Below are positions 1 through 64,000 of a stretch of 64,000 nt of DNA, one piece after another (positions within the stretch are counted from its first letter, which is position 1; the number at the start of each line of letters is the position of its first letter). The notes beneath the pieces were generated by a model. That model searched no databases. It saw nothing but the letters and a program-made list of their open reading frames with translations, and was not told the DNA's origin. The DNA is taken from the NCBI GenBank assembly GCA_032622095.1, contig CP136069.1:204770690-204834689 (forward strand), in the 5' to 3' direction. The DNA comes from Siphonodentalium dalli. Taxonomy: Eukaryota; Mollusca; Scaphopoda; Gadilida; Siphonodentaliidae. A program made the position numbers and the translations under genes.

Positions 1-48
1 TACCATTCTTACCTTCATTACCATTCTTACCTTCATTACCATTCTTAC
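1..48 (-). repeat. 18-bp tandem repeat of splice donor downstream of zinc-finger exon
   Basis: On the minus strand the exon end AAAG is followed by GTAAGAATGGTAATGAAG repeated in tandem, running off the window start. Each 18-bp unit ends in GAAG and so recreates a GAAG/GTAAGA donor. At least 2.5 units are visible. Confidence 0.8.
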
Positions 49-2005: not shown

Positions 2006-2209
2006 GTGTTGATACTGCTGCTGCTATCCATAGATGACTAGTAGTTTCTATCGCTCAAGTTATAACTCCAAATCTAAAAAATAAAATAGATACATTATTA
2101 GATCACAAGCAGTCACTGGACTGTCTAGTTGAGGTACATGTAGTTACTGGTACATTAGAGCCATATCTAATATGGAACAAGAGCACACCGTCGGGGCGTG
2201 GGCACAATA

Positions 2210-10871: not shown

Positions 10872-11061
10872 ATGTCTAAACTTGGCAAACAGAACACCAT
10901 ATTTTCATACTTTACCAAGAGTCCAGCCTCAGATAAGAAAAAATTATCAGATCCTCCTCAAAATAATGTGCTGTCACCCAAACCTTCGCCGAACACACCA
11001 AAATCTTCGAAAATTGCAGAAGTGAGAACACCATCTGAGAAAAAATCTACAGACTCAAATG
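10872..11061 (+). CDS. MSH6: MSH6 exon 1: start codon and PIP box
   Basis: The ATG at 10872 has A at -3. The N-terminus [20 protein letters not shown] contains a PCNA-binding PIP box (QNTIFSYF) in the position known for MSH6. The rest is a low-complexity Ser/Pro/Lys tail. The donor is placed at G/GTAAAC (11062): it leaves phase 1, which fits exon 2 and gives a Glu codon. The frame stays open to 11201, so a later donor (for example after 11088) is not excluded. An upstream in-frame TTG at 10860 is not used as start. Confidence 0.85.
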
Positions 11062-19360: not shown

Positions 19361-19396
<36 letters not shown>

Positions 19397-22300
19397 TTTT
19401 TAAGTTTTGACTTTTTCTCAAAATATCAATACAAAATTTAGGGTCGGTGGTTTATTTTTAGGGTCGGTCGATGTACGGAAACATAGTATCTTTTTTCTTT
19501 GGCCTTACCTGAATAGGAAATAACAATATGCAAGTTATGTATCGAGATACGTATCGTTTGAACGCCCGTATCGATGACCCTATCGTCAGTGCTGTATCGT
19601 GTTCGCATCGATACATCAATGTATCATTACACCCCTACAGTCTGAAAAGTCTTATTCATGATCGCTGAACAATGATCCGAATGGAAAATGCCGACTCCCC
19701 CCCCCCCCCCATTACAACACTTGTCCAGGTATGTTGTCGTGGGTGCAGTACGCTGTCCGATCAGGCACGGACATTAATGGCTGACTCGTGTACACGCCTC
19801 GGTGTGTGCACATTAAAGAATGCTACTGGAGTCACCACAAGGTTATAAAGTTACTCGGCCATGGTAGCACCTGACCCAGTGCGTCAACAACCATAATATA
19901 TGCAACTCTAACTTTTGCTCCAGAGATACTAACTTTGAGTAAACATATTAATGTCCGATAATTGCTCCATATATTGCATATTTCATCATTCCACGATAAA
20001 TAGTTTTATTTGATCAGCGTTATGATTTTAAATAAGGAGCTAACCATGAATCTTTCCGGCATGTACGGTAAGCAACTCCATGCAGGGATACTAGTAACCT
20101 CCCTTGATGAGGGTCCTCATAAATGTCAAACACAACCGAACATAACCGAACACAAGTCCAAATAATGGGAAATATAACAAATTAAGTTCATAGGCATATG
20201 TATTCATGTTCAGACTATTACCATACGAAGTTTGGTTCAATAAGTGTTTTATTTGATTATTTGTAAAACGCATTTTGTGTTCGGCATAGAAAAGCCGAAC
20301 ACAAGCTTCTGTTCGGCATTCAGTCACCGGTAATTAAATAACACATAGACTAAGAAGTGATTAATGCTGGTCTTATGAATCTTATCTTTTATGAAAGACA
20401 TGACCGACAAATTAGGTTCTCCCAGCCTAACTGGTTCATATTTGAAATAAATCAATAATAAACGTTTTTATTTTAAAGGAATGGGTAGTGTTCACAGTTG
20501 GTAATGCTGTAAAAATATGCACATTCGTTGAAACGTGACACTGGTGTCTATTTATTAGAAATAAAGTTAAAATATAGAAAGATTTTTCGCCTATAGTGTT
20601 CTATACCAATCCTAAATATTGCGTAAATTGAATGTTATCTTCAATATTTACAGTATACAGATACTGTGTTATGTAACAAAAGCCAAATTATGTAACATAC
20701 TTTGGCTTTTGTTTACATAAAACTGTGCAGCTTTTGCATGTTATCTGCACGATAATTATCATTGGTATAAGTCACTATAAGAACAAAATATGTCAACATT
20801 TTAATATTCTTTCTGTTTATGGTGGTGTTAAATTATGGATGAGAGTTTTAGACTTCAAATTCATGCAAGATCTGGAAGTGCCGTGATTTGTAGCGATCTG
20901 CATTGGTTTGCGCGAAACATTCTGTCACACATATTTCATTTAAAAACCAAACCTCAGTATTTAAAAATTTTAATACAACGATATTGAATCGAAGCTTCAC
21001 GACAATTTTGAATTGAATCAAATACTTGGAAGCTTCGCAGGCTCCTAATTCCGAGGTTTTAATTAACAGAATATGCTGCTGGAGATCTGCTGTGGTGTAA
21101 GTTGGATGGGTTTCCTTGGTGGCCCGGTATGGTGTGTAATCATCCAACTCATAATGTTCATTATAAAGATGGCAAGACACCACAAGTACATGTCCAGTTC
21201 TTCGATGAACCTACAACAAGGTCCTGGGTGAAAACAAAGTAAGTGTCTAATGTAATCCTATAACAACAATGTCCTGGGTGAAAACAAAGTAAGTGTCTAA
21301 TGTAATCCTATAATAACAAGGTCCTGGGTGAAAACAAAGTAAGTGTCTAATGTAATCCTATAATAACAAGGTCCTGGGTGAAAACAAAGTAAGTGTCTAA
21401 TGTAATCCTATAATAACAAGGTCCTGGGTGAAAACAAAGTAAGTGTCTAATGTAATCATATAACAAGGTCCTGGGTGAAAACAAAGTAAGTGTCTAATGT
21501 AATCCTATAACAAGGTCCTGGGTGAAAACAAAGTAAGTGTCTAATGTAATCCTATAACAACATGCCTCAAAATATGGTGCTGGACATTTGCAGAATTCGG
21601 TCCCCAGAGGGTGAATTTAGTGACATTACCCCGCACAGTGGGGACCTCATTCTGCTTAGGCCTCGTCTTTGGAAAGTATCTCAATTATCAAATTAACAAG
21701 TCTTAGTTTCTTGAGAAATTTTCTTCTTTAGTTTAGTTTCTCTATATCCCCAAATTGGCAGACAACACATGGCATAATCGGTGTGCCCAAAGGGTGCACA
21801 TCATCATGTTCACCAGCTGGGAACTTAAATTTGTGACCAGGACTCCCATAGCAGATGAGGCCATGTAGAATGAGGTTCCCAGAAGGTGAATTTGGTGACA
21901 GCGCCATATTTTGAGGCAAATAAACCTCCAAATGTAATCTAATAATGGTGTGACATCTTCATTGTTTTCATAGTTTATCATTATATGATAATGATAAAGT
22001 GAGACTAACTGGCTGCTACATGTTAAGGTAAGAAAAACTCAAGTGGATGGGGGGGGGGGGTGGGGGGTAATTATTATTGCCTATTGCCTTCTCTGGAAAA
22101 TACATGCTTCATTGTCATCAATAATTGTTTTTCTTTGTCGCATATTCACATTGAATAATAAAATGAGAGTAATTGGCCATCATATGTTGATATCAAAGAA
22201 ATCAGCCGGGGATAGGGGGGGTATAGGCGGTAAACAAGGTGATTTTAAGCAAAAGAAAATTCTGAACTGTAATGCCTCTGCCGAAGAGAAAACATGCTTC

Positions 22301-25300
22301 CTTGTCACCAATGAGTTTTTTTAGTCACATATTGATATTGAATGATAGAATGAGACTAACTAGCCACTACAGGTTAAGGTAAGGTAAGAAAAACTCAGAT
22401 GGGGGATGTGCCGTGGGAGATGAACTGTTACACTGGGTATATCTTGTTCACTCCCTTGTCTTTCTATTTAGAAGTGCAAAACCCTTCAAAGGCACGGATG
22501 ATGAGTCCTTCCAGAGCGGCGGCCAATTCCACACATATAACAATGACTGTCGTAAAGGTGCGAAGGAGGCAGATAAAGTCCTCAAACTGTCTGTGGATGA
22601 ACGCATGAAGCTTATTGTTGATCTCCAACCATCGGAGAGTGAGGATGAGGGCATGGATGTGGATGAAGAGGAACAGTCGGCAGATGAAGCGAATGACAGC
22701 AAAGAGAATCACAATTCATCACCTAACCCATCGGTAGTGTAGATATATAATTATATTAAGAGAATCACAATTCATCACCTAACCCATCGGTAGTGTAGAT
22801 ATATAATTATATTAAGAGAATCACAATTCATCACCTAACCCATCGGTAGTGTAGATATATAATTATATTAAGAGAATCACAATTCATCACCTAACCCATC
22901 GGTAGTGTAGATATATAATTTTATTAAGAGAATCACAATTCATCACCTAACCCATCGGTAGTGTAGATATATAATTATATTAAGAGAATCACAATTCATC
23001 ACCTAACCCATCGGTAGTGTAGATATATAATTTTATTAAGAGAATCACAATTCATCACCTAACCCATCGGTAGTGTAGATATATAATTTTATTAAGAGAA
23101 TCACAATTCATCACCTAACCCATCGGTAGTGTAGATATATAATTTTATTAAGAGAATCACAATTCATCACCTAACCCATCGGTAGTGCAGATATATAATT
23201 ATATTAAGAGAATCACAATTCATCACCTAACCCATCGTTAGTGTAGATATATAATTTTATTACACACTTGTTCCCAGAAGTACAGTGTTATTGCTGTTCC
23301 ATATTTACAAATACGTATGGAACGTATGTTCGATATGTATCTCGTTGACGTAAAATGGTGTACATGACGTTCGCCTCAACCATGAAACCGGAACTGTAAA
23401 ATAAAAGCATCATCACACATGACAAAACACGCCCTCTATGTGCACAAATAAATCTTCTAAGTCTGTATTTTTAATGCACAGATTCTAGGAAGCGAAGCGT
23501 CACGCATGTAATAAACACAGAACGATACGATGTGTAAATGGGTTTGTCAATACGGCACTTGTGCCGACAAACCCATTTACACATCGTGTCGTTCTGTGTA
23601 TATATGCTGGAGTTTATCCACTGACATAATAAACACGTTACGGGATGCTAGTGGTCTGATATGGTGACTCAATGCATTGATGTTCAACGCCCATGGTGTG
23701 TCACTACGATGTTACATAAGATAATGGCCATAGAGTCCACTGACATAATAAATAATATTGATCTCCCTTCGCCTCACATGACACCATATCCGACCATTAA
23801 GTGTCCCGTAACTTATATTATCAAGCAAGCCTTCAAATAGTGTGGCTGTCGATTTGCAGAAAGAGGTCTCCAAAGGGTGAATTTAGTGACGCTACCCCAC
23901 ACATCGGGCTAGCATCACCAAATTTACCCTAAAATTATGCAAAAACCCTGTGCCAATGCATTCTCTTATATATGTGAGCTTCCCATTGTGAACATTGCAT
24001 TTTTAAAAGAATGCTTTGGCCTAACAATATTTACATTGACCTTGTAAGACAGAGCATTCTCTTGCAGGGTTGGTTCAACAAAAAGCCCTGTTTGGAGGTA
24101 TTTTATGCGTCTAACTGGAGACGACTCCAAGAAATGTCGCTGCTTAATATGTCATAAAAACGTCGCTTAAGCCAGAGTCTGGCTAACTATATGAATGCCG
24201 AACACAAGTCCAAATAAGGCGATAATCGCCAACCAAAAAAATTGAAGCGTCTGCTAACTCGAAAACTAAACCAAGTAAATGGTATGAACACTTTGATCGT
24301 CTGGACATTCAGATGTGACGTAATCTGGTAGAAGTTTGCAGCCATATGTGGCATTATGTGCAGCTTGTAAACAATGTCGCAACATCAAAGCGATCACACC
24401 GCAGTCATTGAATGTGGGTCAATCATGCACGTGTCAAGAATTGTTACAGTCAGGTCAAGGACGCCCACTGGTTGTGATTTTGCTGCTGTTTGCGGTTGAA
24501 TTCTCAGATACTAATGCATATAATATGTTAAATATGTTTTAAACATGTCAGAAAGGGATAAATAGTGAAGATGGGGGTGTTTATTTTTTTACCGAATTGT
24601 ATCATCTTATCGCGTTGGATTCAGTTTGCGTCGGCATTTTGTCCCGTTGTTTACCTGTGATCGCATTTCCTTCCTCAAATATTCAATGTTATTGGGACAT
24701 TATTGACTCTAATTACGGTTACTTTGAAAGTATATACTCAAATTGTATGTATTTCAGTCTAATTTCACTATCTAGTAAAAAAAAAACGAAAACCGAACCG
24801 AAACCGAGGTTTTTTCTCCCAGATAAACCGAAGCCGAACATAAAAAATAAAAAATAAAAACCGCCCATCTCTATCCATGGTTCAAATTCATTTGCATATA
24901 ATCTGTTGAGTATAATAGGAGACGGTGCCATAAATGGCCAGACTTAGCGTACAGTTTTTACTTAAGTCAACCATTAACGATTATTTTTAAAAAAGACAAT
25001 CGGTATGAAATATTTATCATGGCAGAAACTATGGTTTGTTTTCAGGAAGTTAAAACACCAGATAAGTCGACCAGGAAGTCAGCGAGATCAAAGAAAGGAA
25101 ATAAAAGACGGAGAATAGTCGAAGCAGATAACAGCAGTGAGGCTGAGTCTGGTTCGTGTTTATTTCCCCCCTCGTAATGGGTTATGGGGGGGTGTGTGTA
25201 GGAATCAACTTGTCTTTCCGTCTTGCCATACATCTGCAGACGCAGCTTTTTCCTATCTTTAATTCCTACATTTTTGGGTAAATTTTTTTAAAACTTGGCA

Positions 25301-28300
25301 CAGATATTTAGTACCATGGGAATATTGAGGTCCGTCAGACTTTTTTAGCTCAAGTTTGAGCTATTGCCGTGGGTTGGCATCCGTCCATCAGTCCATCTGT
25401 CAATTAACAATGCCTCCAGCAGCCATTTTGGATTTCACATTTGAATCTTGGGGCACACCCTGTAGTCCGCATTTATTGGAGAAATGTTTTGAAAATTTAC
25501 AAGCTTGTTTAGGATCACCGAGATGGGAGCTGTCAAATGTTAGCGATTTTTAGGGAATTAATTTCTCGGGATATGACATAATCTGTCATATTTCCACAAA
25601 AACATTGATTTATTTTGGCAGATATAACATCCCAAATACATAGAAATCATGTCTGCAACATTAAAATACATAGACATCACGTCTGCAACATTAAAATACA
25701 TAGAAATCATGTCTGCATTAAAATATGATTTAGAGTAACTGATTGTATTGCTGATTTCCTTGATATTTTATTTCCTTGTACTGACATTTTTTGGCCTGAG
25801 AATGTGAGACCATTATGCAATTTGAACTATTCACAACTTGGGTTATTTTTCTTGACCAAGAGGTATCACAGAACATAGACACATCTTTACATAGGCTTAT
25901 TATGTTTCTGTTTAGACATATGAAAAAAAAAAGAAAAAAAATCATCAGCACTAAATTATGACATGGTTTCGGACATGGGTCAGTTGGGTTAGAAGAATCA
26001 CGCACAATTTTATTTAGACCTTATCAATAAAAGTACATGCTAACATGTTCAACTCTCATACTCACCACATTAGTAATGGTCATAGACATTTTGTTTCCAA
26101 GTCTGCAAATAGTGTCAGTCATTTGCAGAATGAGGTCCCCAGAATGTGAATTTAGTGATGCTATCCCTCAAACTGGGCTAGCTTCGCCAGGGTGTGAATT
26201 TGGTGATGCTAGCCTGCCTTGCGGGATAATATCACTAAATTCACACTCTGGGGACTTCATGACAGACACACTATTTGCAGGCTTGGACCTACTCCGATAG
26301 TGAAATAACTCCTGAATGTTTTATATGTAACCCACAGGGAGCCTCCCACAGATGGAAACATACACTACACAGCGTCGTCTGCTCCAGTCTGTGTGGGGTT
26401 CTCGATGGGTTAAACACTCTATTTGTTCCTTTCTTCCACAGAGGATTCTTTTGAAGCTGGATCTAGTGCTAGTGATGATAGTGCCAGCAGTGGTGTCGAT
26501 GAAGACGATATATCGGATCCCGACCCGGTGTCTGAAATCGATTCTCCAATTAAAAAGGTAAGGAAGTGTCAGTAGTGGCGTCGATGATGATATATCAGAT
26601 CCCGACCCGGTGTCTGAAATCGATTCTCCAATTAAAAAGGTAAGGAAGTGTCAGTAGTGGCGTCGATGATGATATATCAGATCCCGACCCGGTGTCTGAA
26701 ATCGATTCTCCAATTAAAAAGGTAAGGAAGTGTGAGCAGTGGCGTCGATGATGATATATCAGATCCCGACCCGGTGTCTGAAATCGATTCTCCCATTAAA
26801 AAGGTAAGGAAGTGTGAGCAGTGGCGTCGATGACGATATATCAGATCCCGACCCGGTGTCTGAAATCGATTCTCCCATTAAAAAGGTAAGGAAGTGTGAG
26901 CAGTGGCGTCAATGAAGACGATATATCAGATCCCGACCCGGTGTCTGAAATCGATTCTCCCATTAAAAAGGTAAGGAAGTGTGAGCAGTGGCGTCGATGA
27001 AGACGATATATCGGATCCCGACCCGGTGTCTGAAATCGATTCTCCCATTAAAAAGGTAAGGAAGTGTGAGCAGTGGCGTCGATGAAGACGATATATCGGA
27101 TCCCTACCCGGTGTCTGAAATCGATTCTCCCATTAAAAAGGTAAGGAAGTGTGAGCAGTGGCGTCGATGATGATATATCAGATCCCGACCCGGAGTCTGA
27201 AATCGATTCTCCAATTAAAAAGGTAAGGAAGTGTCAGTAGTGGGCTAGTGGCGTCGATGAAGAAGATATATGAAATAGATTCTCCCATCAAAAAGGTAAG
27301 GAAGTGTGAGCAGTGGCGTCGATGAAGACAATATATCAGATCCCGACCCGGTGTCTGAAATAGATTCTCCCATTAAAAAGGTAAGGAAGTGTGAGCAGTG
27401 GCGTCGATGAAGACGATATATCAGATCCCGACCCGGTGTCTGAAATCGATTCTCCAATTAAAATGGTAAGGAAGTGTCAGCAGTGGCGTCGATGAAGAAG
27501 ATATATTGGATCCCGACACGGAGTCTGAAATCGATTCGCCCATTAAAAAGGTAAGGAAGTGTGAGCAGTGGCGTCAATGAAGAAGATATATGAAATTGAT
27601 TCACCCATTAAAAAGGTAAGGAAGTGTCAGCAGTGGCATCGATGACGATATATCAGATCCCGACCTGAGTCTGAAATCGATTCTCCCATTAAAAAGGTAA
27701 GGAAGTGTCAGCAGTGGCATCGATGACGATATATCAGATCCCGACCTGAGTCTGAAATAGATTCTCCAATTAAAATGGTAAGGAAGTGTCAGCAGTGGCG
27801 TCGATGACGATATATCAGATCCCGACCCGGAGTCTGAAATCGATTCTCCCATTAAAAAGGTAAGGAAGTGTGAGCAGTGGCGTCGATAACGATATATCAG
27901 ATCCCGCACCCGGAGTCTGAAATCGATTCACCCATTAAAAAGGTAAAAAAAGATCTGGCCCAGAGACCATACTAGAAAATACAAATTCGGAATTATTATT
28001 GGAGAGAAATTGATGGTTATATGGGAGAAGTCATAAATGTCATATAAAATGTTTTCATTGTATATATATAGAGGATATCTGCACTTTTTGGTTGGATATG
28101 GGAATTATCTCATGAGTAATGACAAAAAAAAAATGAATTTCCACAAGTGGCTTTGCCACGAGTGGAAATTTATTTGTTTCCGCCAAGGAGAAGCCCTTCA
28201 ACTGAACTATATGGATTATTATCCTCGGCCTTGTGTTATCAGGAGGGTTAAAATTTATTGTCCGTTTATTTGCCTACTCCGGTCAATCAGCGACTCCGGT

Positions 28301-46300: not shown

Positions 46301-46899
46301 ATATGTTTACTTCGCATAATATAGCTTCACAGTTGTATAAGATTATACGTATTGGGAGGTTTAGTTATTGTTAATAACTAGGTTCAGCCACAGTACGTGT
46401 AACGTGTGTTGCCATTACCAACGAAATCATCGACTCACATGACCATTCCGCTCACATGTACACCATCAAACAACCGTTTAGACGTTTTGTGTCAATTGTG
46501 CAGCATTGCGAAATGTGTATCAGAGGGGTGTCCAATCTTTATATCAATCGACGAACATGTGCTCAGTTAACTTTTGTTAAATTCTTCAGCAGCGGTGACC
46601 ACGACGTTACTTTTCCCAAATGGGTTGTTGGTACGACTTCCTTTACATACCGTAGGTCGTCTGCACCCTGGAACCGATGAAAGTCAAAGTTTGTTTGTAT
46701 CTGGATGCAGAAATGTTCTCCAATGAGGTCGCATAGCCTACTCTTCTTCGATACACATAGAGGGTTTTTAGCGACCAATGGGCATGAACTACACACGAGA
46801 CGGCACAGCCACTAAGGTGAGCTCGCGATCTCACCACATCTATTCATGGCTCAACCCTGCAAGTTGAGCCAAGGGGTCGTGTTTGGAATGAACCTGCAG

Positions 46900-46931
<32 letters not shown>

Positions 46932-58900: not shown

Positions 58901-61900
58901 AGGTTTAGAAACCTCTGCTTTAACATAATTTAATTATTCTACAGTGGCTGGACAGCCGACAAAGTTTGACAAAGTTGTCAAAAGAGAAGTTTGTCAAATT
59001 ACAACCAAAGGAACAAAGACATACAGTTTCTTAGATGGTGACTGCTCCGACTCAAAGAACAACTATCTTCTGGCTCTCTGTGAAAAGGTGAGTATTAGAT
59101 AATATATAGAGTCCATACACCTATCACCTGGCTCTCTGTGAAAAGGTGAGTATTAGATAATATATAGAGTCCATACACCTATCAACGGATGAAATTCCAT
59201 CATCTTTCCAGGATTTTTGGTATTTTTCCATGACCTCTGGGCAATGAAATTATATGAGTCCAAAAAAAATATATTTGAGTCTCAAACTTTTTTTCTTTCT
59301 GATTCAACGAGGCAGGGAGGACTTTATTTTTCATTTTTTTGTGCACATAGTAAGCATGGTATGATAGCTTCCCTTGTCTATAAATTGAAACATCTCCATT
59401 ATAACGTGTGATCCTAAACTTCCTCCAGTGCCGTTCAATTTGTTCTGGAGTTACAATTAGTACACCAGACTTTGATGATCAATAATCATTTGATACTTAA
59501 TTGTTATAAGACGTTAATGATAATTATTATCCTGATGAGCCTGAACACTGAGTAACCATCTACTGCTCCCCAGGGTCGGGGGATGAACAGCCACAATCTG
59601 GCTAGTATGCTAACAAGATCTTTCACTGCTCATAATCAGGTACGCTTTCAATGCATGGGTGGTCCGAAGCGGATACTATATGAGCGACATTGCTCAAGGG
59701 TCACAGCTTGGTGCGAAATTTGTAAAGCGTCCAATCCGACAATGCATGTCGATCAGTTTGGGTCAAGCCACTGCTGTGTGAATCTCACATTAGACCAGCG
59801 GCGGCTCCAAACTCATCTCGATATGTTGACAGCGAAGACAAGTCAGATGCGCTAACCTTTAGAAAACAATCCTCTACTGTACTATTTTCTGTCAGCTAGA
59901 GGATAATTCCTATAAAGTCTCACCATACAGCGGTGGTACACTATATATAATTAATCCATATTTCGTCATAATTTCAGGAGTGTACCAGCGATGGATATAA
60001 CACATATGGAGTGTGCTTTACTGATACGTCTATTGGGAAATTCTATGTAAGTATAACCATCATTCATGTTACGTGGTCTATGTAAAGTATAACCCTCATT
60101 CATGTTATGGTTGTTTATTGTTCAGTTTTAGTATCAATGTTCATCACTAGATAGTTGATCGGATCTCAATGGAATTTGTTATAGAGGAGTGCATGATGCA
60201 TCAAAAGGGGGCCATATGACATTGTTTGCATTTTCCGTTGAGTTATCTTTATTTATCTGGAAATTATTGTTTTTTGCCCATCTGCCGGAGTATCTTATCT
60301 CAATGAAGTTCGGTTTCAATATAACAAGGGCTTTAATGGTACTCAATCCGAATTAACGCTCGCAAATTACTATTTCCTTGGCTTCAGGGGTAAAAAATAT
60401 TTGATTCAAGTCGAGGAACCCACCCATCAAAGCTGGAGTGATCAGATATCGATGTTTGAAATCTATTATTTTAATTATAAGTGGCCCAGTAAACTGTCGT
60501 CGAGAAGAACTTATGTGACCAGATAGCGGATGAAGATCGATAACTCTAAAATCCAGTGGCTTTTTTATGTCTGATATTTGACAACCGACAAAATTTCGTT
60601 GAACAAAACGTTGATAGGTTTTGGGCAATTTTAAACTATAGTTGACTATGGTTAGCATTATTTTTGGGCAATTAATCGATTCTGATAACTGAAGCGGCAT
60701 TTCAAAAAATGTTGTTGTTGGAATCTGATGATATGGGGACCGTCGAATCGGATTGAGTACCTTTAATTAGGAAGCCATCCTGCCCATGTTTGAATTTACC
60801 ACCATGTGGGGTATGACCGCACCTCTAGTGCTATTGTTTTAATCACTCTTAATATGAATATTGTTGCACCAGATATTTTTCACCTGTAAATCCACTATCT
60901 AAACCAGTTTCATAAAAAAAAATTCCTCGAACTGTTTAGCAGAGAGACTCAATACAGATTCGCCCTCTTTATTTCTTAGGTCGGACAATTCAGTGATGAC
61001 CGACATTGTTCTTTATTTCTTAGGTTGGACAGTTCAGTGATGACCGACATTGTTCTTTATTTCTTAGGTTGGACAGTTCAGTGATGACCGACATTGTTCT
61101 TTATTTCTTAGGTTGGACAATTCAGTGATGACCGACATTGTTCTTTATTTCTTAGGGCGGACAGTTCAGTGATGACCGACATTGTTCTTTATTTCTTAGG
61201 TTGGACAGTTCAGTGATGACCGACATTGTTCTTTATTTCTTAGGTTGGACAGTTCAGTGATGACCGACATTGTTCTTTATTTCTTAGGTCGGACAGTTCA
61301 GTGATGACCGACATTGTTCTTTATTTCTTAGGTCGGACAGTTCAGTGATGACCGACATTGTACTTTATTTCTTAGGTCAGACAGTTCAGTGATGACCGAC
61401 ATTGTACTTTATTTCTTAGGTTGGACAGTTCAGTGATGACCGACATTGTTCTTTATTTCTTAGGTTGGACAGTTCAGTGATGACCGACATTGTTCTTTAT
61501 TTCTTAGGGAGGACAGTTCAGTGATGACCGACAATGTTCTTTATTTCTTAGGATGGACAGTTCAGTGATGACCGACATTGTTCTTTATTTCTTAGGTTGG
61601 ACAGTTCAGTGATGACCGACATTGTTCTTTATTTCTTAGATTGGACAGTTCAGTGGTGACCGACATTGTCATTATTTCTTAGGGCGGACAGTTCAGTGAT
61701 GACCGACATTGTTCTTTATTTCTTAGGTTGGACAGTTCAGTGATGACCGACATTGTTCTTTATTTCTTAGATTGGACAGTTCAGTGGTGACCGACATTGT
61801 CATTATTTCTTAGGTCGGACAGTTCAGTGATGACAGACATTGTTCTTTATTTCTTAGGTCGGACAGTTCAGTGATGACCGACATTGTTCTTTATAGGTCG

Positions 61901-64000
61901 GACAGTTCAGTGATGACCGACATTGTTCTTTATTTCTTAGGTTGGACAGTTCAGTGATGACCGACATTGTTCTTTATTTCTTAAGTCGGACAGTTCAGTG
62001 ATGACCGACATTGTTCTTTATTTCTTAGGTCAGACAGTTCAGTGATGACCGACATTGTTCTTTATTTCTTAGGTCAGACAGTTCAGTGATGACCGACATT
62101 GTTCTTTATTTCTTAGGTCAGACAGTTCAGTGATGACCGACATTGTTCTTTATTTCTTAGGTTGGACAGTTCAGTGATGACCGACATTGTTCTTTATTTC
62201 TTAGGTTGGACAGTTCAGTGATGACTGACATTGTTCTTTATTTCTTAGGTTGGACAGTTCAGTGATGACTGACATTGTTCTTTATTTCTTAGGTTGGACA
62301 GTTCAGTGATGACTGACATTGTTCTTTATTTCTTAGGTCAGACAGTTCAGTGATGACCGACATTGTTCTTTATTTCTTAGGTTGGACAGTTCAGTGATGA
62401 CCGACATTGTTCTTTATTTCTTAGGTTGGACAGTTCAGTGATGACTGACATTGTTCTTTATTTCTTAGGTCAGACAGTTCAGTGATGACCGACATTGTTC
62501 TTTATTTCTTAGGTTGGACAGTTCAGTGATGACCGACATTGTTCTTTATTTCTTAGGTTGGACAGTTCAGTGATGACTGACATTGTTCTTTATTTCTTAG
62601 GTTGGACAGTTCAGTGATGACTGACATTGTTCTTTATTTCTTAGGTTGGACAGTTCAGTGATGACTGACATTGTTCTTTATTTCTTAGGTTGGACAGTTC
62701 AGTGATGACTGACATTGTTCTTTATTTCTTAGGTCAGACAGTTCAGTGATGACCGACATTGTTCTTTATTTCTTAGGTTGGACAGTTCAGTGATGACCGA
62801 CATTGTTCTTTATTTCTTAGGTTGGACAGTTCAGTGATGACCGACATTGTTCTTTATTTCTTAGGTTGGACAGTTCAGTGATGACCGACATTGTTCTTTA
62901 TTTCTTAGGTTGGACAGTTCAGTGATGACTGACATTGTTCTTTATTTCTTAGGTCAGACAGTTCAGTGATGACCGACATTGTCTTTATTTCTTAGGTTGG
63001 ACAGTTCAGTGATGACTGACATTGTTCTTTATTTCTTAGGTTGGACAGTTCAGTGATGACTGACATTGTTCTTTATTTCTTAGGTTGGACAGTTCAGTGA
63101 TGACTGACATTGTTCTTTATTTCTTAGGTTGGACAGTTCAGTGATGACTGACATTGTTCTTTATTTCTTAGGTTGGACAGTTCAGTGATGACTGACATTG
63201 TTCTTTATTTCTTAGGTTGGACAGTTCAGTGATGACTGACATTGTTCTTTATTTCTTAGGTTGGACAGTTCAGTGATGACCGACATTGTACTTTATTTCT
63301 TAGGTTGGACAGTTCAGTGATGACCGACATTGTTCTTTATTTCTTAGGTTGGACAGTTCAGTGATGACTGACATTGTTCTTTATTTCTTAGGTCAGACAG
63401 TTCAGTGATGACCGACATTGTCTTTATTTCTTAGGTCGGACAGTTCAGTGATGACCGACATTGTTCTTTATTTCTTAGGGCGGACAGTTCAGTGATGACC
63501 AACATTGTGCTTTATTTCTTAGGTTGGACAGTTCAGTGATGACTGACATTGTACTTTATTTCTTAGGTTGGACAGTTCAGTGATGACCGACATTGTCTTT
63601 ATTTCTTAGGTCGGACAGTTCAGTGATGACCGACATTGTTCTTTATTTCTTAGGTTGGACAGTTCAGTGATGACCGACATTGTACTTTATTTCATAGGTT
63701 GGACAGTTCAGTGATGACCGACATTGTTCTTTATTTCTTAGGTTGGACAGTTCAGTGATGACCGACATTGTTCTTTATTTCTTAGGTTGGACAGTTCAGT
63801 GATGACCGACATTGTTCTTTATTTCTTAGGTTGGACAGTTCAGTGATGACCGACATTGTTCTTTATTTCTTAGGTTGGACAGTTCAGTGATGACTGACAT
63901 TGTTCTTTATTTCTTAGGTCAGACAGTTCAGTGATGACCGACATTGTCTTTATTTCTTAGGTCGGACAGTTCAGTGATGACCGACATTGTTCTTTATTTC
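10872..64000 (+). CDS. MSH6: DNA mismatch repair protein MSH6, 5' part of gene (exons 1-13 and start of 14)
   Basis: MSH6 pairs with MSH2 to form MutSalpha, which recognises base mismatches and small loops in the nucleus. Exons: 10872-11061, 21070-21238, 22472-22733, 25046-25151, 26442-26557, 33829-33978, 34751-34833, 37725-37812, 40249-40308, 44779-44853, 52070-52208, 58945-59087, 59978-60046. All introns are GT-AG and phases match at every junction (1,2,0,1,0,0,2,0,0,0,1,0,0). Joined they give 1650 nt (550 residues) without a stop. Domains in order: N-terminal PIP box, PWWP domain, charged linker, mismatch-binding domain I with MGKFYELF, and start of the connector domain. The lever, clamp and ATPase domains lie beyond the window. 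The gene exceeds 53 kb because of intronic transposons and splice-junction repeats. Orthology to MSH6 rather than MSH3 rests on the PWWP domain, the SxxFF-type start and the WW..K..FD context. Confidence 0.96.
11580..11835. repeat. Dense GCAAATTTGCTGC inverted/direct repeat cluster
   Basis: The words GCAAATTTGC, TTTGCTGCAAA and CATGCAAATTAGG occur many times in both orientations and form foldable arms (11650-11700 against 11740-11800). The same words recur at about 15240-15410. It is non-coding; the short frames here are artefacts. Confidence 0.7.
11879..12550. mobile_element. Small hAT-like element (672 bp)
   Basis: Ends CAGGGTTTCCGCTA ... TAGCGGAAACCCTG are perfect 14-bp inverted repeats. 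They are flanked by the direct repeat ACTCACT (11872-11878 and 12551-12557), a 7-bp match with an eighth base differing. Similar subterminal GGGGCCG..GTCAAGGGGA blocks lie on both sides. It has no ORF and is nested within the 8.3-kb element. Confidence 0.8.
12560..15235. other. Non-coding intron DNA within the large insertion
   Basis: No exon or complete element was recognised. A ~36-bp unit (AAAATCTGGCTACA..TGTGATCA) repeats about three times at 13490-13570. Confidence 0.45.
15236..15420. repeat. Second GCAGCAAAC/TTTGCTGC repeat cluster
   Basis: It shares words with the 11.6-kb cluster (CTGCAAAGTTGCAGCAAAC, TTTGCTGCAAACATGCCGC) in the opposite sense, so the pair may be inverted ends of one older element spanning about 11.6-15.4 kb. 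Confidence 0.5.
16305..18705. mobile_element. TACCCCC-type repeat element with ~155-bp tandem core
   Basis: It starts with ATACCCCCCGCAACGAAGTT and its hairpin partner AGGGGGGTAT, and ends near a G-run, then TCCCATTGGGACAGTCACAC. The core has tandem units built from AGCTCGTTAGCGCGATAACT, GAAATTTGG and GTTATGGCCCTTAA. A related shorter copy is at 34905-35700 and a fragment at 25165-25350. It is non-coding and interrupted at 17286 by a TTAA MITE. Confidence 0.7.
17286..18021. mobile_element. piggyBac-like TTAA element (736 bp) nested in the repeat
   Basis: TTAA + CCCTTTGAACCCGAGAG at the left and CAGGGTTTAAAGGG + TTAA at the right. The host repeat sequence ATGGCCCTTAATTAGTCA is restored when the element and one TTAA are removed. 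No transposase frame is seen. Confidence 0.75.
18706..21069. other. Remainder of MSH6 intron 1, no exon seen
   Basis: It contains an A-run then T-run at 19365-19400, a C-run at about 19688-19701, and the right end of the hAT-like element at 19637. The words CCGAACACAAG occur in both orientations at 20140-20320, suggesting a small degenerate TIR element. Confidence 0.5.
21070..21238 (+). CDS. MSH6: MSH6 exon 2: PWWP domain
   Basis: After TTAACAG comes [18 protein letters not shown], a textbook PWWP motif, then [18 protein letters not shown]. In animal MSH6 the PWWP domain binds histone H3K36me3 and brings MutSalpha to chromatin. The aromatic cage residues W, W and F are present. It enters in phase 1 and leaves in phase 2 at a strong GTAAGT donor, which is then repeated seven times downstream. 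Confidence 0.95.
21213..21560 (+). repeat. Splice-donor array of exon 2 (7 copies, 50/47 bp)
   Basis: The last ~26 nt of exon 2 (AAGGTCCTGGGTGAAAACAAA) plus the donor and ~24 nt of intron (GTAAGTGTCTAATGTAATCC) repeat head to tail. Copies of the GTCCTGGG word start at 21221, 21271, 21321, 21371, 21421, 21468 and 21515. Only the first copy is joined to the complete exon. Each copy keeps a perfect GTAAGT. The unit is not a multiple of three. Confidence 0.95.
21563..21918. mobile_element. MITE family A variant, 356 bp
   Basis: Ends TGCCTCAAAATATGGTGCTG and GCGCCATATTTTGAGGCA are inverted repeats. Inside are arms with GAATGAGGTTCCCAGAAGGTGAATTTGGTGAC and its relatives. It lies directly beside the exon-2 donor array. 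Related copies are near 40350-41160 and 44328-44735. Confidence 0.75.
22472..22733 (+). CDS. MSH6: MSH6 exon 3: post-PWWP linker
   Basis: After TTTCTATTTAG the frame reads [20 protein letters not shown], then a helix-like stretch ([20 protein letters not shown]) and an acidic run ([15 protein letters not shown]) ending NSSPNPS. This fits the part of MSH6 just after PWWP. It enters in phase 2 and ends in phase 0 at TCG/GTAGTG. The donor is weak, and if it is missed the frame stops after two codons (GTA GTG TAG). The junction is repeated ten times downstream. Confidence 0.9.
22703..23262 (+). repeat. Splice-donor array of exon 3 (10 copies, 56 bp)
   Basis: Ten head-to-tail copies start at 22703 and every 56 bp to 23207. 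Each holds the last ~31 nt of exon 3 (AGAGAATCACAATTCATCAC..), the donor GTAGTG and 24 nt of AT-rich intron. Copies are nearly identical, differing mainly at ATTATATT/ATTTTATT. The last copy reads TCGTTAGTG at the donor. Confidence 0.97.
23516..23600. mobile_element. 85-bp near-perfect hairpin
   Basis: Arms of about 36 bp begin ACACAGAACGATACGATGTG and pair with CACATCGTGTCGTTCTGTGT, around a GGCACTTGTGCC centre. It is a MITE-like hairpin with no coding capacity. Confidence 0.75.
23615..23825. mobile_element. Imperfect inverted-repeat element
   Basis: ACGTTACGGGATGCTAGTGG at the left pairs with the complement of ATTAAGTGTCCCGTAACTTA at the right, and CACTGACATAATAAA occurs at 23620 and 23739. 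It looks like a small palindromic element or two tandem ones. Confidence 0.5.
23845..24065. mobile_element. Family A MITE followed by a degenerate hairpin-family copy
   Basis: GCAGAAAGAGGTCTCCAAAG..AATTTAGTGACGCTA and its inverted partner lie at 23855-23940. It is followed by CCAATGCATTCTCTTATATA and a decayed return arm (AGAATGCTTTGGCC). Confidence 0.6.
24330..24690 (+). repeat. Dispersed repeat, copy 1 (second copy at 51005-51375)
   Basis: About 360 bp, sharing long matches such as ATCAAAGCGATCACACCGCA and GTCAGGTCAAGGACGCCCAC with the copy at 51005, same orientation. Frames in it are short; it is a non-coding repeat in two MSH6 introns. Confidence 0.8.
25046..25151 (+). CDS. MSH6: MSH6 exon 4: basic linker with likely nuclear signal
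   Basis: After TTTGTTTTCAG the frame reads [20 protein letters not shown] then [15 protein letters not shown]. The KKGNKRRR cluster looks like a nuclear localisation signal, as in the linker of known MSH6. Phase 0 in, phase 1 out. The donor G/GTTCGT is weak, and a TACCCCC-type repeat fragment begins about 12 bp past it. This junction is not duplicated. Confidence 0.88.
25165..25560. mobile_element. Truncated TACCCCC-type fragment joined to an AGCTCAA-type fragment
   Basis: It begins TTCCCCCCTCGTAATGGGTT and reaches the CTTGGCACAGATATTTAGTA block of the family at 34905. At 25348 it changes to TAGCTCAAGTTTGAGCTATT, the start of the family at 57380. Confidence 0.6.
25640..25725 (+). repeat. ~37-bp tandem repeat, 3 copies
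   Basis: The unit AATACATAGAAATCATGTCT + GCAACATTAA occurs three times, the last one shortened. Confidence 0.75.
26100..26285. mobile_element. Family A palindromic MITE
   Basis: The ends GCAAATAGTGTCAGTCATTT and AGACACACTATTTGC are inverted. The arms carry GAATGAGGTCCCCAGAATGT and its complement. Confidence 0.75.
26442..26557 (+). CDS. MSH6: MSH6 exon 5: acidic linker
   Basis: After TTCTTCCACAG the frame completes Glu and reads [20 protein letters not shown] then [18 protein letters not shown]. This matches the acidic SSDEISSGV...SPVK part of MSH6. Phase 1 in, phase 0 out at a strong AAG/GTAAGG donor, which is the seed of an 18-copy array. Confidence 0.93.
26488..27960 (+). repeat. Splice-donor array of exon 5 (18 copies, ~82 bp)
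   Basis: Eighteen copies hold the last ~69 nt of exon 5 (from AGCAGTGG.GTCGATGA to ATTAAAAAG) plus GTAAGGAAGTGT. Donor GTs are at 26558, 26640, 26722, 26804, 26886, 26971, 27056, 27141, 27223, 27296, 27381, 27466, 27551, 27616, 27697, 27778, 27860 and 27943. Unit length varies (65-85 bp) by GAAGAC/GATGAT changes and internal deletions. Nearly every copy keeps GTAAGG; the last reads GTAAAA. The repeated SGSD..SSS peptides on the minus strand are artefacts. Confidence 0.97.
30285..31005. repeat. Degenerate repeats inside the long-TIR element
   Basis: Blocks with GCATTTATATTG, CAC(G/T)GCC or CCACTGCC, CAACAGAGTCC..CATGGCTCTT and CTTCTATT recur at about 30290, 30440, 30600-30620, 30810 and 30960. 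Confidence 0.6.
31439..32480. repeat. GC-rich repeats and stem-loop inside the long-TIR element
   Basis: A stem-loop CTTACCTGC...GCAGGTAAG sits at about 31456-31486. The block CAGACCGTGG.AGGCAG..GAGATTCGGGCAACCA occurs at 31570 and 32348, with a partial third copy at about 31060-31130 (GAGGAAGACTC..CAGCCAACCA). Base composition is higher in GC than the surroundings. Frames here are open in several directions but match no family known to me. Confidence 0.5.
33682..33828 (+). pseudogene. Broken duplicate of MSH6 exon 6 (pseudo-exon)
   Basis: This 147-bp block is a diverged copy of the start of the real exon 6 with its acceptor. It begins VSIKRKKPG like the exon, then hits TAG after NG, and decays after about 85 nt before the TATATA..TTTGTAG acceptor of the true exon. 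It is an acceptor-spanning tandem duplication. Confidence 0.85.
33829..33978 (+). CDS. MSH6: MSH6 exon 6: basic/serine linker
   Basis: After TTTTGTAG, exactly 50 codons, phase 0 to 0, beginning [20 protein letters not shown] and ending [14 protein letters not shown] before GTATGT. It corresponds to the VKxxRKR...TKxxLxxFxA linker of MSH6. KRKK and VRR may add to nuclear import. Confidence 0.92.
34218..34487 (-). mobile_element. tRNA-derived SINE with 15-bp target duplication
   Basis: Read on the minus strand it starts GGGGCGTCCATGGCTCAGTC, with a pol III A box (TGGCTCAGTCAGT, 34477-34465) and B box (GGTTCAAATTC, 34417-34407). It ends in AATCAATAAGTCAATCAATC. The flanks are the direct repeat TTTCACAGGGTTGAT at 34203-34217 and 34488-34502. 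This is a clean retroposed SINE in MSH6 intron 6. Confidence 0.88.
34590..34780 (+). repeat. Splice-acceptor duplication of exon 7 (3 copies, 55-59 bp)
   Basis: Three acceptors (CATTAG) end at 34636, 34695 and 34750, followed by GTCGAAAGCACTCCAGCTTC, GTTGATATATATTG and the true GTTGAAAGCACCCCAGCTTC. Only the last joins the full exon. The first copy is followed by TAAATTG, which stops the frame. Confidence 0.9.
34751..34833 (+). CDS. MSH6: MSH6 exon 7: entry to mismatch-binding region
   Basis: After TATCATTAG the frame reads [20 protein letters not shown] then FLHPENI; the codon split with exon 8 gives Lys. Phase 0 in, phase 2 out at AA/GTGAGT. It corresponds to the W..ETLEWLK region before domain I. 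Confidence 0.92.
34905..35700. mobile_element. TACCCCC-type repeat element, shorter copy
   Basis: It starts with a C-run and TAACGAAGTTAGGGGGGTAT, followed by GTCCGTCC runs, then three or four units with AACTTGGCACAGA.AT, CATGGGAACCTGTGCACCTG and TCCTACATTTTT. It ends with ACACGGGGGGTATCC and TCCCATTGGGACAGTCACAC. Homologous to 16305-18705. Confidence 0.75.
35860..36834. mobile_element. hAT-like element (975 bp) with 8-bp duplication, hosting a TTAA MITE
   Basis: The ends AGGGACCTGCGA ... TCGCAGGTCCCT are perfect 12-bp inverted repeats (two extra bases TT at the left). Flanks are ATGTGATA at 35852-35859 and 36835-36842. It has no transposase frame. The piggyBac-like MITE at 36152-36400 sits inside it. 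Confidence 0.8.
36152..36400. mobile_element. piggyBac-like MITE (249 bp) flanked by TTAA
   Basis: TTAA + CCCTTTGAGTGCCAGG ... CCTGGCACTCAAAGGG + TTAA, perfect 16-bp ends. The interior has GGCCGATCTCATCGGCC and the long hairpin CCAATGCATTCTCTTATATA..GGCGACC / complement. It is the best preserved copy of the family also seen at 7870. Confidence 0.92.
36967..37584. mobile_element. Composite family A element
   Basis: Ends TAATATGGTGTCTATCATTT and AAATGACAGACACCATATTT are inverted. Three GAATGAGGTCCCCAGAGGGT-type hairpins lie at 36990-37055, 37245-37345 and 37470-37560. Confidence 0.7.
37725..37812 (+). CDS. MSH6: MSH6 exon 8: start of mismatch-binding domain I
   Basis: After TTAATTTCAG the frame reads (K)[20 protein letters not shown] then SDHMTKCTP, matching the RRRP.HPDFD..TLYVP...CTP block of MSH6. 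Phase 2 in, phase 0 out at CCT/GTATGT. A frameshifted copy of its end follows at 38025. Confidence 0.95.
38025..38324 (+). pseudogene. Broken tandem duplicate of exon 8 end plus intron (~268-bp unit)
   Basis: 37757-38024 is repeated from 38025. The copy reads GATTACGATCCGAAAACTATCG where the exon has ..TTCGAAAACTCTG, so it carries a one-base insertion and loses the frame. Its donor-like GTACGT follows ACACCT. The repeated unit also includes intron sequence ending TAACTATATAACTCCTG, which reappears in every unit of the exon-9 array. Confidence 0.88.
38329..40260 (+). repeat. Splice-acceptor array of exon 9 (15 copies, 71 bp)
   Basis: Acceptor Gs are at 38348, 38419, then 39396 and every 71 bp to 40248. 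Each unit has 43 nt of intron (..CTCTTCTTGATTGCAG) and the first 28 nt of exon 9 (GCAATGCGACAATGGTGGGA..). The last 13 units look identical; the first reads GTAATG. A TA-flanked transposon splits unit 2 at 38445-39348. Only the final unit runs into the full exon. Confidence 0.97.
38445..39348. mobile_element. 904-bp TIR transposon inserted at TA inside the array
   Basis: Ends CTCTCTCCTGCC ... GGCAGGGGAGAG (11 of 12 bases) are flanked by TA. Removing it and one TA restores the 71-bp unit exactly. Near the left end is a 26-bp perfect palindrome (AATAAACGTGAC/GTCACGTTTATT, 38457-38482). CACCATCACTATTATT repeats lie near the right end. No transposase frame; a Tc1/mariner-type TA target is likely. 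Confidence 0.88.
40249..40308 (+). CDS. MSH6: MSH6 exon 9: domain I
   Basis: Twenty codons, phase 0 to 0: [20 protein letters not shown], then GTAATA. It matches the MRKWWQIKSQNFD block of MSH6 just before the mismatch-reading loop. The acceptor is the last of fifteen tandem copies. Confidence 0.95.
40345..41465. mobile_element. Cluster of family A arms and recurrent long hairpins
   Basis: Family A arms lie at 40370-40440, 40600-40690 and 41390-41460. Three copies of the hairpin CCAATGCATTCTCTTATATA/complement lie at 40702-40772, 40992-41060 and 41302-41357. They are joined by CAGACAAACATGAGCAGACG and its complement, which suggests one composite palindrome of about 1.1 kb. Confidence 0.65.
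42305..42475. mobile_element. Palindromic MITE, ~170 bp
   Basis: GTAATCAATTGGTTCCGAGA..ATTACGTTATATAATTCA pairs with TGAATTATTTAACGTAATTC..TCGGAACTAATTGATTAC. An inner arm pair (GGTAAGAAA/TTTCTTACC) supports a long hairpin. Confidence 0.75.
42770..44190 (+). repeat. Diverged tandem duplication in intron 9
   Basis: 42775-43420 (GGGAGGCC.TGGATTCAC, ACACAAGAAATATTT, TTTAATTTAATCAATATTT, GAAATGAAAACGAAATTGTT) recurs at 43415-44180, with the second copy split by about 400 bp at 43507-43905. Confidence 0.65.
42999..43253. mobile_element. Family A palindromic MITE, best copy
   Basis: Outer ends CCTTGAAATAGTGTGTCTGT / complement are perfect over more than 30 bp. Inside are two nested hairpins of GCAGAATGAGGTCCCCAGAG + GGTGAATTT(A/G)GTGATGCTA. 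It lies inside the left copy of the tandem duplication, so it arrived after that. Confidence 0.88.
44328..44735. mobile_element. Family A variant (~408 bp) just upstream of exon 10
   Basis: Ends CTTGAGAATATTGTCCTGGA and CAGCACCAATTTTTGAGG are related inverted ends, like 21563-21918. It ends only about 45 bp before the exon-10 acceptor. Confidence 0.65.
44779..44853 (+). CDS. MSH6: MSH6 exon 10: mismatch-reading FYE motif
   Basis: Twenty-five codons, phase 0 to 0: [20 protein letters not shown] then LLYMK, before GTGAGT. The Phe-X-Glu in GKFYE is the motif that stacks on and hydrogen-bonds the mismatched base in MutS and MSH6. Both key residues are intact, so the protein should be competent. 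Confidence 0.97.
46899..46932. repeat. Long poly-C tract (~31 nt)
   Basis: An uninterrupted C-run in the foldback spacer. Shorter C- or G-runs are at about 9796, 18646, 19688, 22050, 32631 and 34911. Confidence 0.9.
47110..47757 (-). pseudogene. Retrotransposon gag-like remnant in foldback spacer
   Basis: The minus strand reads [11 protein letters not shown] followed at once by [18 protein letters not shown], then a hydrophilic tail. This resembles the gag C-terminal part of Ty3/gypsy-like elements, with the residues that usually lie between these two blocks missing. The frame ends at 47518 and a second frame (47537-47193) continues with Asn/Arg-rich sequence, so it is broken. No protease, RT or LTRs were found. 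Confidence 0.5.
50199..51490. mobile_element. ~1.29-kb TIR element with TA flanks
   Basis: TA + CCGTAACGGTCGGTGGATAA at the left and TTATCCACCGGCGGGTACGG + TA at the right are inverted ends; GTCGCAT/ATGCGAC follow inside. The dispersed repeat at 51005-51375 lies within. No transposase was recognised. Confidence 0.65.
51005..51375 (+). repeat. Dispersed repeat, copy 2
   Basis: Homologous to 24330-24690 in the same orientation (see GTTGAATTCTCAGATACTAA and CATTTTGTCCCGTT). Here it is inside the TIR element at 50199-51490, which suggests copy 1 is a remnant of the same element. Confidence 0.8.
51700..51880. repeat. ~54-bp tandem repeat, 3 copies
   Basis: The unit GCATTGTGTCGCTTACATGG + TTTTAGTTCATTAAATTAAATTA is repeated; the first copy is diverged. 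Confidence 0.8.
52070..52208 (+). CDS. MSH6: MSH6 exon 11: domain I core
   Basis: After TTTTTCATTCAG the frame reads [20 protein letters not shown] then [20 protein letters not shown] and [26 protein letters not shown] and the MVAERC end are hallmark MSH6 residues. Phase 0 in, phase 1 out at A/GTAAGT. This junction is not duplicated. Confidence 0.97.
52546..53230. mobile_element. Nested TTAA element carrying hairpins and a LINE tail
   Basis: TTAA + CCCTTTACCCAACAGAAGGG ... CCCTTCTGTTGGGTAAAGGG + TTAA, perfect 20-bp ends. Another TTAA + CCCTTTACCCAAC end lies inside at 52614. The recurrent hairpin CCAATGCATTCTCTTATATA occurs at 52575, 52757-52823 and split around 52908/53182. A LINE 3' tail has landed inside one such hairpin. 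Confidence 0.85.
52938..53180 (+). mobile_element. 5'-truncated non-LTR retrotransposon 3' end
   Basis: The frame [24 protein letters not shown] ends in TAA at 53033 and is the usual C-terminus of a non-LTR RT protein. Its 3' UTR ends GGCGCTATACAAATAC and an (ATT)n tail. It splits the arm of a hairpin repeat (ATATATGCGAGGCGACCTAT / ATATATAAGAGAATGCATTG). Confidence 0.8.
53231..53495. mobile_element. Family A MITE copies
   Basis: Arms with ATTCACCCTCTGGGGACCTC at 53285 and TTTGCAGAATGAAGTCCTCA at 53402 with inverted partners. The last one is cut by the next repeat at about 53493. Confidence 0.65.
53493..54330. repeat. TATACCCCC-headed repeat with ~185-bp tandem units
   Basis: The start TATACCCCCTTTT/AAAAAGGGGGGGTATA is a hairpin. 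Four units follow with ATCTCAATGAAATTTGGTAT, GTTCACTACTATGAGGACAT and TTATTCATCTTTGTTTATCT. A related fragment lies at 60120-60330. Confidence 0.75.
54545..54680. mobile_element. Family A palindromic MITE
   Basis: GCAGAATGAGGTCCCCAGAG + GGTGAATTTAATGATACTA pairs with its complement ending CCTCATTTTGCAAATGGCAG. Confidence 0.75.
54890..56412 (+). pseudogene. Degenerate non-LTR retrotransposon, RT and C-terminal zinc motif
   Basis: The plus strand reads [36 protein letters not shown] and the catalytic [12 protein letters not shown] (about 54905-55240). Then come [13 protein letters not shown] and [20 protein letters not shown] (about 55405-55610), and a 169-codon frame (55903-56412) with [19 protein letters not shown], a Cys/His motif common at the end of some non-LTR pol proteins. 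Stops (TGA ~55006, TAG ~55098, TAA ~55354, 55453) and frameshifts show it is dead. The 5' part with endonuclease is absent. Confidence 0.85.
56840..56955. repeat. ~42-bp tandem repeat, 3 copies
   Basis: The unit GTAAATTATAATGAGGTTT..AGAGACTTACATTCA is repeated at about 56853, 56894 and 56926. Confidence 0.8.
56981..57111. mobile_element. 130-bp near-perfect hairpin MITE
   Basis: GAAATACGCCGATATAGTGC + ATAGTG.GGTTGTGTAGTTCA pairs with its complement around CTCCGCTTCGCGTCG. Arms are about 57 bp with few mismatches. Confidence 0.85.
57380..58600. repeat. AGCTCAA-headed repeat with ~165-bp tandem units (about 7)
   Basis: The head AGCTCAACTTTACTTAGTAA/GTTTGAGCT is a hairpin. Units carry GACATGTAGATGGGAACGAG, ACATGGCCGCCAGCAGCCAT and ATCATGAAATTTGTC. 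The TTGGATTTTACTC frames are not genes. A fragment lies at 25348. Confidence 0.8.
58945..59087 (+). CDS. MSH6: MSH6 exon 12: end of domain I
   Basis: After ATTCTACAG, completing Met, the frame reads [20 protein letters not shown] then [20 protein letters not shown] and [20 protein letters not shown] is the conserved MutS/MSH6 VxREV..I.T.GT strand. Phase 1 in, phase 0 out at AAG/GTGAGT. Confidence 0.97.
59071..59186 (+). repeat. Splice-donor duplication of exon 12 (2 copies, 58 bp)
   Basis: TGGCTCTCTGTGAAAAG + GTGAGTATTAG and 30 more intron bases occur at 59071 and again at 59129, essentially identical. It holds 17 nt of exon and 41 nt of intron. Confidence 0.95.
59190..59975. other. Intron 12, no further exon seen
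   Basis: No element with clear ends. The frame at 59583-59855 has scattered Cys/His but no flanking splice sites consistent with MSH6 and no recognised family; it is taken as non-coding. Confidence 0.5.
59978..60046 (+). CDS. MSH6: MSH6 exon 13: start of connector domain
   Basis: After CATAATTTCAG, 23 codons, phase 0 to 0: [20 protein letters not shown] then KFY, before GTAAGT. YGVCF.DTS.GKF is the conserved start of MutS domain II in MSH6. Confidence 0.97.
60042..60111 (+). repeat. Splice-donor duplication of exon 13 (2 copies, 35 bp)
   Basis: TCTATGTAAGTATAACCATC + ATTCATGTTA.G recurs from 60077 as TCTATGTAAAGTATAACCCT. It carries only about 5 nt of exon plus the donor; the second donor has an inserted A. 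Confidence 0.85.
60333..60766. mobile_element. TTAA-flanked MITE, family B, copy 2
   Basis: TTAA + TGGTACTCAATCCG and CGGATTGAGTACCT + TTAA. It shares TTGATTCAAGTCGAGGAACC and ATGTTGTTGTTGGAATCTGA with copy 1 at 10083-10559, but the middle differs. Confidence 0.85.
60968..64000 (+). repeat. Splice-acceptor array of MSH6 exon 14 (about 69 copies, 44 bp, runs off window)
   Basis: From 60980 a 44-bp unit repeats to the window edge: GT(T/C)GGACAGTTCAGTGATGAC + (C/T)GACATTGTTC + TTTATTTCTTAG. The first part encodes [10 protein letters not shown], the next residues of MSH6 after exon 13 in the right phase, and the end is an acceptor. So each unit is the exon-14 start plus its splice acceptor. Variants at GTTGG/GTCGG/GTCAG, CCGAC/CTGAC and length (43 bp, one 36 bp) mark subfamilies. 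Read through, the 44-bp unit shifts frame and meets TGA within three copies, so it is not a coding repeat. The copy joined to the full exon lies beyond 64000. Confidence 0.96.

Follow-up and report, generated by a model that had tools for sequence, protein, structure and literature searches.

The 64,000-nucleotide stretch of contig CP136069.1 analyzed here (C9:204770690-204834689; hereafter the window) carries, on its plus strand, the 5′ portion of MSH6 from the scaphopod Siphonodentalium dalli, a gene rich in introns. Protein homology, exon ends, and phases place exons 1 to 13 and the start of an acceptor array belonging to exon 14 at positions 10872..64000 (+). Homology was established by tblastn with a human MSH6 sequence as the query, and the gene was traced past the window to at least exon 31, which ends at position 108091 in joined coordinates (L007). 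The exon map, comprising splice ends, phases, and open frames, covers E2 to E31, and the exon-1 donor lies outside it. Splice-site inspection found AG/GT ends at every one of these exons, and the phases agree throughout, by computation across E2–E4 and E8–E31 and by hand, from the same output, from E4 to E8. Exons with the Pfam MutS_V domain lie 3′ of the window, and over the in-frame exons 2 to 31 the gene looks functional, judged on its sequence. The intron between exons 16 and 17 (L004 to L005, joined 74906-77800) contains broken frames resembling those of a hAT or BED-finger transposase.

The first part of the window holds a neighboring gene on the minus strand. At its edge, an 18-bp donor array of ~3 copies (AAG/GTAAGAATGG...; 1..51, minus strand, running to the window edge) probably marks where a C2H2 zinc-finger exon ends, both the donor assignment and the zinc-finger label following from the reading frame. 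The long open exon of this gene, zinc-finger-like by eye, includes an in-frame 45-bp tandem duplication in which 15 residues occur twice (window 288-377, minus strand), and near its 5′ end a 62-bp unit is present in 2.8 copies (window 1838-2009, minus strand), possibly as another exon-edge array. Broken frames at window 5775-2770 (minus strand) resemble those for endonuclease and reverse transcriptase in non-LTR retrotransposons. Dispersed repeats are present as well: a 69-bp near-perfect palindrome, recognized by eye (GCCAATGCATTCTCTTATATATGCGAG...), occurs in several copies (40705-40773, 40991-41059, and 52757-52825) and is like a small inverted-repeat transposon, and a 93-bp family with inverted ends (GCAGAATGAGGTCCCCAGAGGGTGAATTT...; 37246-37338, 43029-43224, and 53405-53497) has up to 10 copies in the window at 60-100% identity.

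Along MSH6, Tandem Repeats Finder and a self-comparison of the window place tandem arrays at the exon edges where an earlier sequence-only reading had reported them, all on the plus strand. On the donor side, exon 2 (21070-21238) carries ~7 copies of 47-50 bp (21213..21560), exon 3 (22472-22733) 10 copies of 56 bp (22702..23262), exon 5 (26442-26557) 18 copies, mostly of 82-85 bp (26488..27946), and exon 12 (58945-59087) two copies of 58 bp (59059..59184). Two donor copies at exon 8 (37725-37812), spaced 270 bp apart (37776..38171), are non-adjacent and therefore stand outside the event count given below, and the donor-side duplication at exon 13 (59978-60046), of two copies spaced ~36 bp apart (60042..60107), is marginal, its match to the exon being 1 bp, or 5 bp by eye with one indel. 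On the acceptor side, exon 6 (33829-33978) has two copies at a spacing of 147 bp (33652..33893), exon 7 (34751-34833) ~3 copies of 55-59 bp (34594..34755), and exon 9 (40249-40308) 13 copies of 71 bp (39342..40276), with a detached pair of the same 71-bp acceptor unit ~0.9 kb 5′ of the main array (38303..38444). The acceptor array of exon 14 consists of a 44-bp unit repeated over ~69 unit lengths within the window (60966..64000) and runs a further 1,136 bp into L003; joined, it extends from 60966 to 65136, 4.2 kb or ~95 unit lengths in all, and exon 14 itself occupies 65105-65176 in joined coordinates. The array holds 88 copies with no more than 10 mismatches from the unit, one of which lacks the AG.

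Nine of the ten exon edges that had been listed as duplicated do span a junction, and the tenth, at exon 13, barely touches the exon. The events had also been described as anchored on a GT or AG boundary; these dinucleotides are included, but the units span the junction: in the clean arrays, the exon contributes roughly 18-70 bp to each and the intron 10-46 bp. Beyond the window, donor arrays are found at exon 20 (57 bp, 4 copies), exon 27 (31 bp, 10 copies), and exon 31 (34 bp, 2 copies). Single copies lie farther from the junction at exons 19 and 25, the acceptor array of exon 16 reaches the AG only, and a gap of 5-50 bp separates the junction from the arrays that lie by the exon-24 and exon-27 acceptors and 3′ of the exon-28 donor. 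When 14 MSH6 units were compared with each other, there were 0 cross-matches, which upholds the earlier view of the arrays as independent events.

One event caller, which recognizes adjacent duplications, was applied to MSH6 and to a sample of other genes. With exons E8, E19, and E25 left out of the count, MSH6 has 31 tandem events, 11 of which (seven donor and four acceptor) span one of the 60 junctions tested, against the 0.82 junction hits that the remaining 20 events predict at the intronic rate. A second expectation came from pseudo-junctions, that is, junctions shifted 60-1000 bp into introns and counted only where they fall inside the exon-proximal unit of an array (the founder-unit null); it amounts to 1.4 junctions, so that the 11/60 observed is an 8-fold excess. 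The contention that junctions are affected beyond chance is therefore borne out for this gene. By present-day coverage, 11/60 MSH6 junctions compare with 3-5/60 intronic points, and in 40-base windows a local copy is found at 14/60 junctions versus 636/3,521 (18%) intronic windows, some of which sit inside junction arrays themselves. The affected junctions are concentrated in E2–E14, the half of the gene within the window (8/26 by the event caller, versus 3/34 in E15–E31), and this half is an upper-tail sample, chosen for looking striking.

The sample of other genes comprised 180 exons from eight families, each with 400-600 bp of flank per side, and several of these exons share a gene or come from paralogues. 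All listed rows were used for PolB (12 of 12), RNA polymerase (10 of 10), and MSH genes other than MSH6 (11 of 11, a further 5 of the 16 rows being MSH6). CCT contributed 42 of 53 listed rows, two intronless matches and near-duplicates being left out, tRNA synthetase 20 of 31, kinesin 40 of 123, SNF2 30 of 73 (best-scoring first, with three read-through rows skipped), and myosin 15 of 85, hand-picked for spread; the neighboring zinc-finger gene was kept out of the sample. Many myosin exons with near-equal scores lie within ~1.3 Mb (C4:274219458-275508405), which suggests a recent local expansion of a myosin gene. Two myosin exons match a scallop myosin best, with a lead of ~2 bits, a weak pointer to a mollusc, and a search for molluscan haemocyanin, uninformative as a negative, found nothing. 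Splice positions were assigned by script, or by hand for L011, L028, and L077, and where one was missing the match edge was used. The array of L127 lies within the match and was left out of the count. The event caller missed acceptor copies at L023 (83 bp upstream) and L035 (154 bp upstream), and these are uncounted. L180 was suspect beforehand from the match table, and results are also given without it.

In this sample, 12 of 360 junctions (~3%) lie in arrays, against 5.1 expected under the founder-unit null (2.3-fold, P = 0.007). The arrays are those of L011, L022, L025, L028, L032, L072, L077, L090, L147, L170, L180, and L181, eight at donors and four at acceptors. When the unselected downstream half of MSH6 is added, the figures become 15/394 versus 5.9 (P = 0.001, or 0.003 without L180), and in the sample a rate-based estimate likewise exceeds expectation at three stringencies. 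Junction arrays occur in several unrelated genes, and the excess is modest on average. Over all 23 junction arrays, units range from 31 to 147 bp, and donors outnumber acceptors 15 to 8 (P = 0.21), from which no bias is claimed. Median copy number over all arrays is 4.0 at junctions versus 2.1 in introns (P = 0.007), 3.8 versus 2.1 in the sample plus the downstream half of MSH6 (P = 0.09), and 2.9 versus 2.1 in the sample alone (P = 0.21); copy number was dropped as a sign of extra junction instability, its significance resting on the selected window. A gene-blind scan for arrays with three donor motifs found no excess over the reversed motif, either in total (2,268 versus 2,417 matches) or over the initial 85 Mb of contig 1 (9 versus 11 loci, counted by eye among the first 100 places listed); the scan is a weak test, because of that scope and because a few satellites dominate it. 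A satellite of ~26/52-bp units with AGGTAAGT came up in it at C1:231991190-232058398.

Present-day coverage gives no excess in the sample, with arrays at 7-14/360 points placed 100-300 bp into introns and at 12/360 junctions. Since a single event can leave a long array that overlaps many points of today's sequence, our preference is for the founder-unit null; this null was adopted after the coverage result was known, and the preference is a choice. The coverage result favors an explanation by tolerance and persistence, in which duplication proceeds at a uniform rate and the excess is an effect of detection, since selection on one copy would keep junction arrays recognizable for a longer time. 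Such an effect could plausibly account, by inference, for as much as about a twofold excess, and the sample excess is only 2.3-fold; the lack of a significant difference in copy number outside the selected window points the same way. However, junction arrays look no older than intronic ones. Identity among copies is 95.7% versus 92.8% (23 versus 55 arrays, P = 0.08) and, without the selected window, 94.6% versus 92.8% (15 versus 46 arrays, P = 0.41), so that arrays at junctions are no more diverged than those in introns, which is evidence against mere longer survival. The 8-fold excess in MSH6, though selected, also speaks against persistence, which we regard as a possible but not a probable source of the excess.

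A different explanation would confine the phenomenon to MSH6 or its chromosome region, as a local hotspot in an otherwise ordinary genome. The per-junction comparison of MSH6 with the sample (11/60 versus 12/360; Fisher P = 7e-5, with the window half selected) argues for it, and the neighboring zinc-finger gene seemingly has a donor array too. Yet the sample by itself lies above the founder-unit expectation at the P value given above, and MSH6 outside the window, a window chosen as striking, has arrays at only 3/34 junctions. Within introns, MSH6 and the sample have the same density of tandem events, ~0.21 per kb; MSH6 is therefore not simply repeat-rich, and part of its density arises because the dense half was the one chosen. 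The same equality does not fit the suggestion, made in the sequence-only reading, of selection against all other duplications. That reading had also presented the amplification as systematic and special to MSH6: the gene is indeed denser per junction than the sample, but the same structures are present at ~3% of the junctions of other genes, and the half that prompted the description was a selected one. A purely local hotspot thus appears rather doubtful.

The surplus splice sites might instead be functional, for example by guiding the spliceosome to exons that are short and set in long introns, and be kept by selection. In seven MSH6 arrays, AG or GT is missing in only 2 of 151 copies, and variability is lower at the splice columns than elsewhere in the unit in E14 (0.013 versus 0.027), E27 (0 versus 0.057), and E2 (0 versus 0.008) and slightly so in E5 (0.028 versus 0.033), as function would predict. 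Against this, the two kinds of column are equal in E9 and E3 and the order is reversed in E20 (0.062 versus 0.046), and the copies within an array are not independent; with four arrays lower, two equal, and one higher, the picture is mixed and there is no clear sign of selection on splice columns. The GT is no longer present in several of the copies at L025, a CCT exon. Moreover, were splicing to move to one selected surplus copy (the adjacent one or, for E7, the second upstream), a stop codon would follow in 10 of 11 arrays and a frameshift in the other, E27; the frame would be broken in all 11, which makes useful spare sites unlikely. Unit lengths are spread evenly over the remainders 0, 1, and 2 modulo 3 (8, 8, and 7 of the 23 arrays), and surplus copies are therefore not kept as protein. 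Function of the surplus sites is, in our judgment, very unlikely. Least credible is an assembly effect, also raised earlier, which is highly improbable because, although tandem arrays pose difficulties for assembly, neighboring copies are imperfect (median identity 96% over the 23 junction arrays), unit lengths vary, and the copies are diverged in the two-copy cases.

Collectively, these analyses favor near-neutral, junction-spanning minisatellites of the kind that has been called "mirages," produced by an edge-biased duplication process, a reading to which we assign a probability of roughly 0.62. In this model, a segment of 31-147 bp, consisting of tens of bases of exon edge, the splice site, and neighboring intron sequence, would have undergone head-to-tail duplication, each junction independently of the others, and some of the duplications would later have expanded, one of them to ~95 unit lengths. 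Splicing would use the junction adjoining the exon body; because it must do so, the protein would survive and the surplus copies would leave with the intron, being neutral to a first approximation. That the surplus lies in the intron had been noted before and is so, but it is to be expected of any junction-spanning duplication if the exon-proximal site is used. The arrays should be harmless only while the exon-adjacent splice site stays the choice. The excess itself would be mutational, with the exon edges of transcribed genes duplicating more than intron interiors and the products not being kept for function. A splicing- or transcription-linked duplication process, as envisaged in the sequence-only reading, is possible, and the coupling of edge duplication to either activity is a guess. 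The strongest form of the idea, in which exon edges in this lineage would be true hotspots of duplication and expansion through a transcription- or splicing-coupled process, so that junction minisatellites would recur in unrelated animals, with the repeat-guarding MSH6 among the worst hit, we consider unlikely.

The arrays constitute a natural experiment on splice-site choice, above all at exon 14, where more than 80 near-identical acceptors lie upstream of the one required. They also extend what was a lancelet curiosity to another genome, with a first estimate of junction excess, and this estimate makes junction-linked duplication testable in any long-read genome.

Processes that copy splice-site sequence have been described in several forms. 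Introns can be gained when an exon segment that contains AGGT is duplicated in tandem, as set out in the accessible text of a review (PMC3443670). On that description, the two cases share a tandem duplication that takes in splice-site sequence, but in MSH6 the copied junction bounds, on one side, an intron that already existed. An AGGT-type supply of both intron ends was sought by comparing the donor of E5 with the acceptor of E6 and the donor of E8 with the acceptor of E9, and neither pair shares sequence; the remaining introns with arrays have them at one end only. Introner elements are repeated sequences that bring splice signals into introns. The MSH6 arrays differ from these in that each stems from its own exon edge and the units are unrelated, and no introner-like family common to many introns was found (0 cross-matches among the 14 units).

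For the structures themselves a published precedent exists, although the sequence-only reading cites none. In lancelets, mirages are minisatellite-like tandem duplications of the intron–exon boundary, described in Adh3 and in the globins BflGb6 and BflGb9, with units of 10 to ~160 bp across these three genes (PMC3087553). A further mirage is described in troponin C, together with similar but imperfect repeats in PGBD5, also in lancelet (PMC3902484). According to the accessible portions of these reports, mirages lie on the donor or the acceptor side, the surplus is absent from mRNA, many copies carry AG/GT, splicing is undisturbed, and length varies between haplotypes and, at Adh3, also in soma (PMC3087553, PMC3902484). 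As far as those portions go, the arrays in MSH6 and in the other genes studied here share with mirages a unit that spans the exon–intron boundary, the involvement of donors and acceptors alike (7 + 4 in MSH6, 8 + 4 in the sample), and unit lengths (31-147 bp) within the 10-160-bp range. They differ in their host, which is not a lancelet, with a genome of ~0.5 Gb, but a scaphopod with a 2.23-Gb genome in 9 contigs of 190-301 Mb. Differences on our side further include 11 junction events in one gene, an array of ~95 unit lengths, and the application of an intronic null. Undisturbed splicing was reported in lancelets; here, the MSH6 frame is intact when the proximal junctions are taken. Variation in length between haplotypes is a lancelet feature, the present assembly representing one haplotype. 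Among the matches listed in full-text literature, a body that most subscription journals lie outside, no junction minisatellites beyond lancelets were recognized. The structures are real, striking, and of an already named kind, apparently new in this lineage, dense in one gene, and accompanied by a junction excess that is measured but modest.
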